Below are positions 40,878 through 48,686 of a stretch of 64,000 bases of DNA, one piece after another. This stretch comes from Kofleriaceae bacterium (lineage in GTDB: Bacteria; Myxococcota_A; Polyangia; Haliangiales; Haliangiaceae), in the NCBI GenBank assembly GCA_025357755.1, contig JANXOP010000374.1, positions 1 through 64,000 of the forward strand, in the 5' to 3' direction. The notes below the pieces were generated by a model that ran no database searches, had not been told where the DNA came from, and saw only the letters and a list, made by a program, of their open reading frames with translations. The position numbers and the translations under genes are program-made. Numbering within the stretch: the first letter of the stretch is position 1; every line of letters starts with the position of its first letter.

Positions 40878-42674
40878 ATGGGTCAGACACCGCCTCCACC
40901 TACTGGTCCACCGAGTGGTCGCCAGCCTTCGCAGGGGCCTGCGCCGAGCGAGGAGTTTGTCGACTACAACGACTTCGAGAGTGACGCGACCAACGTCAAT
41001 CAGATCCCGCAGCCGGGTCAGCCGATGCCACCGGGTCTGGCGACTCCGGTGCCACGCAACTCGGCACCGCAGATGTTTCCGCAAGGCTCGCCGCAGCTCT
41101 CGCACCTCGGCCCGCCGGTGCAGCAGCAGCCGCAGATGTCGCCGCACCCGCAGGGCATGATCACGAATCCCGGGCAGCCGATGCAGCAGCAGCCCGGGCC
41201 GCCGATGTCGCAAGTCTCCGGCGTGATCGCGCAAGCAACGCCGTACGTGTCGCGCTCGCGGATCTACGCGTTCGTCGTGGACGAGACCGGGATGCCGATC
41301 GAGCTCGGCTCGGGCCGGTTCGCGAAGGCGTATCTCGGCGAGGAGCGCTGGGTCGAATCCAAGACCACGCTGCGTCGCCCGGTCGCGATCAAGTGCCTCC
41401 AGCGCGGCGTCAACGACGAAGACCAGATGCGCTTTCAGATCGAGAAGGAGATCCTCGAGCGCGTTCAGGGTCACCCGAACATCGTCGAGCTCCTCGCCTC
41501 CGGCGAAGGCGACAGCGCCGGCTTCATTCCGCCGGCCATCCGCGAGAAGGTCGAGAACGATTTCATGATCCTCGAGCTGCTCGACATGAGCCTCGAGGAA
41601 CGCTTGAAGGGCGCGCGTCAAAAGCGCCGTCGCGATGATCTCCTCGCGGTGCCGTTGCGCGAGCGGATCTTCCGCGTGCTCGAGTACACCATCCCGGTCG
41701 CGACCGCGGTCGAGTTCGCGCACCTCGTGCGCGATACGTGTCACCGCGATATCAAGCCGGCGAACATCCTCGTCAAGCTGCCGGATCCGAACCTGCGCGG
41801 CGCGCAGATGAAGATCAAGCTCGCTGACTTCAACGTCGGCAAGGTCGCCGATCCGGATCTCGACGTCTCGATGACGCGATTCCAGTCGGTGCCGGGCACG
41901 CTGTACTTCCAGTCGCCCGAGCAAGAGACCAACACGTTCGAGCTGCTCGTCAACACGACCCAGGGTTCGCCCGAGGTCGAGTTCTTCGAGGACTTCTACA
42001 TCGACATCTTCGAGAACGACACGTTCTCGCTGTTCAACCGCAACGAGCTCTACTCGATCGCGGCCGCGGATCGCACGCGCAAGAAGCTCTTGCTCAACCG
42101 ACCGTTCGCCGAGGGCTCCGAGATCAACGTGCGCGGACGCGTGGTCAAGAGCGTCGGTCGCCCGGCCGACATCTACTCGCTCGGCGCGGTGTTCTACTAC
42201 TTGATCTCCGGCGCGTACGCGAACCCGAAGAACTTGTTCGACGCGTTCCGGAAGTTCGTCGAGTACGAACGGCGCGACGAGAACAACTCGATCGCGGCGT
42301 ACATCGAGCACGAGTACCGCACGATCCAGAACCTGCGCGCGCCGAAGGCCGACGGCCAGGGTGCGCCCGAGCTCGCGCCTGAAGATCGGTTCTTCAGCTA
42401 CAAGCACTACCTCGACGGCAACGGCGAGCTCATCGATCCGGCGATCATGATGATCATCGCGAAGGCGATGATCCGGAACAAACCCGATAGCTACTGCCTC
42501 TCGTACGACCTGCGTACGACCGGCATCTCGGCGATGGTCCACGATCTGCTCTCGCTCTACGTCGCGTTCGGCATCGATCCGTCGGCGCGCATCGCATACT
42601 CGAACGAGGGCTACGCTGCCCCCAAGAAGTCCGGCACGATGCGTCGCGCCTTCGACAAGTTGTTCAAGAAATGA
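40878..42674 (+). CDS. Atypical Ser/Thr kinase with DFN motif and approximately 80-residue insertion in the activation segment
   Basis: 598 residues. The N-terminal 125 residues are Pro/Gln/Met-rich and disordered. Kinase parts are ELGSGRFAKAYLG, Lys172 in VAIKCL, HRDIKPAN with Asp291, and LADFNVGK (DFN replaces DFG at 317-319). SPEQ at 346-349 is normally followed within about 20 residues by the DxxSLG helix; here DIYSLG is at 431-436, so roughly 80 residues (350-430, rich in Phe, Glu and Asp) are inserted at the P+1/substrate-binding region. Catalytic Lys and Asp are kept. The stop overlaps the ATG of the TGA-containing gene. Confidence 0.88.
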   Translation: MGQTPPPPTGPPSGRQPSQGPAPSEEFVDYNDFESDATNVNQIPQPGQPMPPGLATPVPRNSAPQMFPQGSPQLSHLGPPVQQQPQMSPHPQGMITNPGQPMQQQPGPPMSQVSGVIAQATPYVSRSRIYAFVVDETGMPIELGSGRFAKAYLGEERWVESKTTLRRPVAIKCLQRGVNDEDQMRFQIEKEILERVQGHPNIVELLASGEGDSAGFIPPAIREKVENDFMILELLDMSLEERLKGARQKRRRDDLLAVPLRERIFRVLEYTIPVATAVEFAHLVRDTCHRDIKPANILVKLPDPNLRGAQMKIKLADFNVGKVADPDLDVSMTRFQSVPGTLYFQSPEQETNTFELLVNTTQGSPEVEFFEDFYIDIFENDTFSLFNRNELYSIAAADRTRKKLLLNRPFAEGSEINVRGRVVKSVGRPADIYSLGAVFYYLISGAYANPKNLFDAFRKFVEYERRDENNSIAAYIEHEYRTIQNLRAPKADGQGAPELAPEDRFFSYKHYLDGNGELIDPAIMMIIAKAMIRNKPDSYCLSYDLRTTGISAMVHDLLSLYVAFGIDPSARIAYSNEGYAAPKKSGTMRRAFDKLFKK

Positions 42675-42988
42675 GCAACGTGGTGCCTGCAATGTCCGGC
42701 TCGATCGCTGACATGAAGTTGCTCCGCGATCGCTGCAACGAGATCGGGATCGTCGCCGAGATTGGCTGCCCACCGGGCGCAGCCGGTCATGGTTGAGGGA
42801 CCAAGACGCACCTCCTGGTTCAGGAGGATCAAGTGCCGAAGCTGAACGAGCTGCTCGCGAATGACTGGCGCGAGCTGAGCGGTGGCGCCGAAGTGGATCT
42901 CTCGGGCGAGGCCTGCCCGGCGTGCGGCTGCACGCGGCCCCTCGAGGCCGGCGCTTGCAGTGATTGCGGCTTGCAGCTCGAGTTCTAG
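42671..42988 (+). CDS. Candidate selenoprotein with C-terminal zinc ribbon (in-frame TGA at codon 42)
   Basis: From ATG 42671, overlapping the kinase TGA (ATGA), the frame gives 41 residues (MSNVVPAMSGSIADMKLLRD and so on, ending CPPGAAGHG). A TGA (42794-42796) follows, then the same frame stays open for 63 residues (GTKTHLLVQEDQVPKLNELL and so on) with C-P-A-C-G-C and C-S-D-C-G, a zinc ribbon, to TAG 42986-42988. Read as selenocysteine it is 105 residues with Cys33 eight residues before Sec42. A perfect hairpin at the expected SECIS distance follows the TGA. Alternatives: a nonsense mutation, or a separate short gene from GTG 42833, which has AGGAGG 5 nt upstream. I recall Cys in this position in related small zinc-ribbon proteins, but cannot check. 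Confidence 0.6.
42811..42827 (+). promoter_or_regulatory. SECIS-like hairpin downstream of the in-frame TGA
   Basis: CCTCCTG (42811-42817), GTT, CAGGAGG (42821-42827): a perfect 7-bp stem. If the last G-C pair is open, the tip is GGTTC, resembling the GGUCU loop of E. coli fdhF as I recall it. The stem begins 14 nt after the TGA and the GG lies 20 nt after it. The 3' arm includes AGGAGG, which is also a Shine-Dalgarno for GTG 42833; both roles cannot be excluded. Confidence 0.5.

Positions 42989-47072: not shown

Positions 47073-48686
<1,614 letters not shown>

Follow-up and report, generated by a model that had tools for sequence, protein, structure and literature searches.

A predicted selenoprotein gene of Myxococcota related to selenoprotein DG

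The locus and its interrupted reading frame

The window considered here, that is, the whole 64,000-nucleotide stretch of contig JANXOP010000374.1 that was analysed (all of the features described below lie on its forward strand), contains at positions 42671-42988 a small gene whose frame runs from ATG 42671 through a TGA codon at 42794-42796 to TAG 42986-42988 and is open except for that one TGA. The joined product amounts to 105 residues, encoded by 105 codons followed by TAG, with the in-frame TGA at residue 42, exactly as the original prediction had laid it out when it proposed that the TGA encodes selenocysteine (Sec). The ATG, found also in the closest relative (L016/L045), overlaps by four nucleotides (ATGA) the stop codon of an upstream Ser/Thr protein kinase-like gene (40878-42674; Pfam Pkinase, 68 bits), a position supported by synteny within the genus; two adjacent genes of this kind are in fact found upstream, between 39079 and 42674, in an order conserved in the genus. 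Further downstream, at 47073-48686, lies the gene of peptide chain release factor 3 (RF3, prfC; NF001964, 763 bits).

The protein appears to be composed of two parts, an N-terminal ferredoxin-like core of the DUF2007 type (42680-42871) and a C-terminal zinc ribbon, CPACG...CSDCG (42914-42970), whose four Cys are invariant in the family alignment and which gives weak matches to known zinc ribbons. Between TGA and ribbon, at 42811-42827, the transcript can form a hairpin with the six-pair stem CCUCCU/AGGAGG and the loop GGUUC.

The Sec/Cys column and the machinery to decode it

The joined protein was used as the query in a search of 144 genomes, the window's own among them; matches were found in 55, and 50 genes were aligned; many of the relatives that carry the protein are uncultured. 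The peptide is conserved both upstream and downstream of the TGA, zinc ribbon included, and the column of residue 42, placed in the motif G-U-G-T-K, is occupied by TGA in 33 of the 50 genes (that of the window counted), by Cys in 16 and by Ala in one, the comparison with homologues that had been suggested at the outset thus placing Cys opposite the TGA. Five extra TGA members emerged from a search of the wider phylum, and with this wider sampling the same column holds 38 U and 18 C rows. In the tree, which is built on few columns and leaves many forks unresolved, well-supported branches divide the TGA rows into two groups or more, which requires at least two Sec/Cys changes. The single Ala belongs to a member of the Cys lineage (L057, genome G131), in which the reactive residue has likely been lost.

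The possibility, raised with the original prediction, that the TGA of the window assembly is a sequencing error or the product of a recent nonsense mutation might draw on the draft state of the genome (450 contigs), but the identical codon recurs in 33 species and five more, with the protein conserved on both sides of it, and this recurrence across independent genomes excludes a sequencing error and refutes that rival as a whole.

According to a second rival raised at the same time, the TGA closes a 41-residue peptide, and translation starts afresh at GTG 42833, behind the Shine-Dalgarno-like AGGAGG (42822-42827; the whole putative site spans 42822-42835), to give a separate second protein. 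Both sequence elements are indeed present, and their spacing in the window is suitable; the homologues, however, do not start at this GTG, which is kept in only 3 of the 33 with a TGA, the first start codon after the TGA varies from 2 to 47 codons downstream, the Cys homologues read as one continuous frame, and distant members replace the AGGAGG and yet keep the hairpin. The site was rejected, and re-initiation is considered highly improbable.

No more credible is a reading without Sec, in which a suppressor tRNA or an altered code would let the TGA specify another amino acid, such as Cys or Trp. That relatives carry Cys at this position would agree with it, but the upstream kinase gene itself terminates at TGA, the downstream hairpin would be left with no role, and the machinery for Sec is at hand. 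Indeed, the window's own genome encodes a tRNA-Sec (selC; anticodon TCA, 69 bits), selA (504 bits), selB (322 bits) and selD (319 bits), all on contigs other than that of the window; the four genes for which a search had been proposed are therefore present, including selB and selC, whose absence was to count against the selenoprotein reading. Among the genomes compared, the call of tRNA-Sec relies on a clear gap in score, real ones exceeding 60 bits and the remainder reaching at most about 52; on this basis it is present in 31 of the 33 genomes with a TGA gene versus 4 of the 17 with the Cys or Ala form (Fisher P 6e-7, a value that ignores kinship, TGA genes and tRNA-Sec both clustering by lineage). 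The two TGA genomes without a recognised tRNA-Sec (G001 and G024) are drafts, and selB scores above the cut-off in both; of the four tRNA-Sec-bearing genomes outside the TGA set, three have the Cys form, alongside one more. Two strong tRNA-Sec copies were seen within a single genome in G008 (C163) and in G075 (C260/C272), which could reflect duplication or redundancy of the assembly.

The hairpin downstream of the TGA

The bacterial SECIS is a hairpin just 3' of the TGA, with a G among the first bases of its loop and a distance from the codon of about 16-37 nt. In the window the loop reads GGUUC, and an interval of 20 nt lies between the TGA and its first G (42817), in agreement with this rule. 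A hairpin carrying GU in its loop is possible at this location in each of the 33 TGA genes, and the five TGA members of the wider phylum have one too, while the Cys relatives are devoid of it; the SECIS-like element that had been proposed from the window is thus confirmed as a feature that recurs in every TGA homologue folded, and its conservation, the lack of which was to count against the proposal, holds in TGA genes only. The folding energies follow the same division: in the TGA genes the hairpin region has a mean of -10.9 kcal/mol, compared with -6.8 kcal/mol for synonymous recodings, and in the Cys genes the same region has a mean of -3.5 versus -3.1 kcal/mol. A scan of the window against Rfam gave no match.

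Taken alone, the hairpin of the window has only a modest advantage over synonymous recodings of its peptide (P about 0.11), and in close relatives the per-sequence synonymous-shuffle test is weak (P about 0.1-0.3); the conserved peptide LLV(Q/E)E fixes much of the hairpin, so that little support for it can be drawn from close relatives. Within this peptide the choice of codons is nonetheless biased, the first Leu being CTC in 33 of 33 genes and the Val always GTC or GTT, never GTG, a codon in frequent use in the genes of the window. The strongest evidence for a SECIS comes from distant members with different and still complementary stems: in four of them (L161, L167, L063 and L064) LLV(E/Q)E is replaced by LAVA(S/G) and the hairpin is retained, as GCUCGC-GGUC-GCGAGC-type structures whose loop begins at the same base as that of the window, and in L038 the outermost stem pair has changed from C-G to G-C in a compensatory manner. 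Since the loop of the distant members is shorter by one base, counting pairs in a fixed register underrates their stems. It is on conservation across species and covariation, and not on the window by itself, that the weight of the hairpin rests.

What computation establishes is that the TGA is a conserved codon of the Sec type, that the SECIS-type hairpin is conserved with it, and that the genome is equipped to decode such a codon. That Sec is actually inserted in the host organism is very likely from these comparisons of sequence; the SelB system would insert it at codon 42, directed by the hairpin 20 nt downstream. Supported by the recurrent TGA, the Sec machinery and the conserved hairpin, the selenoprotein reading put forward by the original prediction is given a probability of about 0.95.

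Family relationships, fold and possible role

The label 'new' attached to that reading has not survived, a related family having been predicted as a selenoprotein in 2025: selenoprotein DG was proposed by deep-Sep in Desulfosediminicola (PMC12013277) and is listed with the motif GUxG in a 2026 review (PMC13188914). The corresponding NCBIfam model, NF049953 ('zinc ribbon-containing (seleno)protein DG'), is matched by all 13 members scanned, across the Sec region as well as the C-terminal ribbon; the window protein aligns with it over residues 3-103 (model positions 58-171) at 41.3 bits and E 1.5e-10, below the cut-off of 130 bits, a score that none of the genomes among the 144 and the 379 searched attains. 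The best Cys relative, L159, reaches 116.5 bits, with its Cys in register with the Sec column of the window. The differences from DG are nevertheless several: the model includes an N-terminal zinc ribbon (model positions ~4-34) that neither the window gene nor its close relatives possess, the window branch beginning only near model position 58; the Sec motif is GUGT in the window branch versus GUxG in DG; and DG comes from Desulfosediminicola, the window branch from Myxococcota. That additional N-terminal zinc ribbon is present in longer relatives, L159 and L160 among them. Judging from these profile matches, the window gene and its relatives are no entirely new family; they make up a Myxococcota branch, short and divergent, that is related to selenoprotein DG. 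Also observed in the Myxococcota was a broad group of proteins (L162-L183) in which two zinc ribbons surround a related core with neither Cys nor Sec in the loop.

As to the fold, the structure predicted for the core, at moderate confidence (pLDDT 66.8, for a model derived from two sequences), has the order strand-helix-strand-strand-helix. No significant Pfam domain was detected in the window protein, a sequence search against solved structures gave no match (best E 0.05), and Foldseek returned generic ferredoxin-like or PII-like matches only, none with an E below 0.001. Comparison of profiles by hhalign is more informative: the core matches DUF2007 (PF09413), a putative signal-transducing domain with a like order of secondary structure elements, over 55 columns at 89% probability, a likeness seen by profile comparison only, as the window protein itself has no direct Pfam match and stays below the gathering score. 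The DUF2007 relatives compared are without an invariant Cys at the aligned loop, unlike the Sec/Cys of the window family. The protein would accordingly be described, by likeness, as an N-terminal ferredoxin-like (DUF2007-type) domain followed by a C-terminal four-Cys zinc ribbon, with Sec probably placed in the loop that precedes a core strand, the third. In such a setting Sec42 would most likely be the reactive selenolate of a small regulatory protein concerned with redox reactions or with the handling of chalcogens or metals; a redox/chalcogen role of Sec as reactive residue, suggested by likeness at the level of the fold, may be given an even chance.

A different function for the same selenoprotein has to be weighed, namely that of a selenium or sulfur carrier like DUF3343 (Se_S_carrier, PF11823), instead of a redox switch. 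DUF3343, for which a role in Se/S trafficking has been proposed (PMC5322559), is a small domain with one invariant Cys-Gly, and hhalign sets its invariant Cys opposite Sec42; the match of the core is weak, at 59% probability, below the 89% obtained for DUF2007, and DUF2007 and DUF3343, set against each other in the same comparison, give barely a match (2.8%). The DUF3343 proteins seen are without a C-terminal zinc ribbon, unlike the window protein; in the searches with PF11823 the Pfam gathering score was not reached, one member giving E 0.09, and the window's own genome yielded none. With selA, selB, selC and selD on other contigs, the gene has no known link to selenium genes either. A carrier function is on balance unlikely, albeit worth retaining beside the redox/chalcogen reading.

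RF3 is encoded near the gene in 12 flanks examined in the taxonomic family of the window, the window excluded; in eight of them it lies downstream with the same orientation, and in four it is divergent. None of the other taxonomic families examined showed this linkage, which may be simple synteny. That the branch would be a distinct subfamily, with Sec on a DUF2007-like sensory domain, and the linkage to RF3 a real functional tie, the protein for example regulating translation termination in response to selenium or redox state and taking the efficiency of UGA decoding as its own input, is very doubtful.

For the Myxococcota the analysis adds at least 38 well-supported Sec-encoding genes, which the present NCBI model leaves unclaimed because they fall below the cut-off of NF049953, and which the usual rules of annotation would cut at the TGA or start too late. 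For the DG family, predicted by computer, it provides backing through the exchange of Sec and Cys, the co-occurrence with the Sec machinery and the covariation of the SECIS, and it points to a likely fold for that family.
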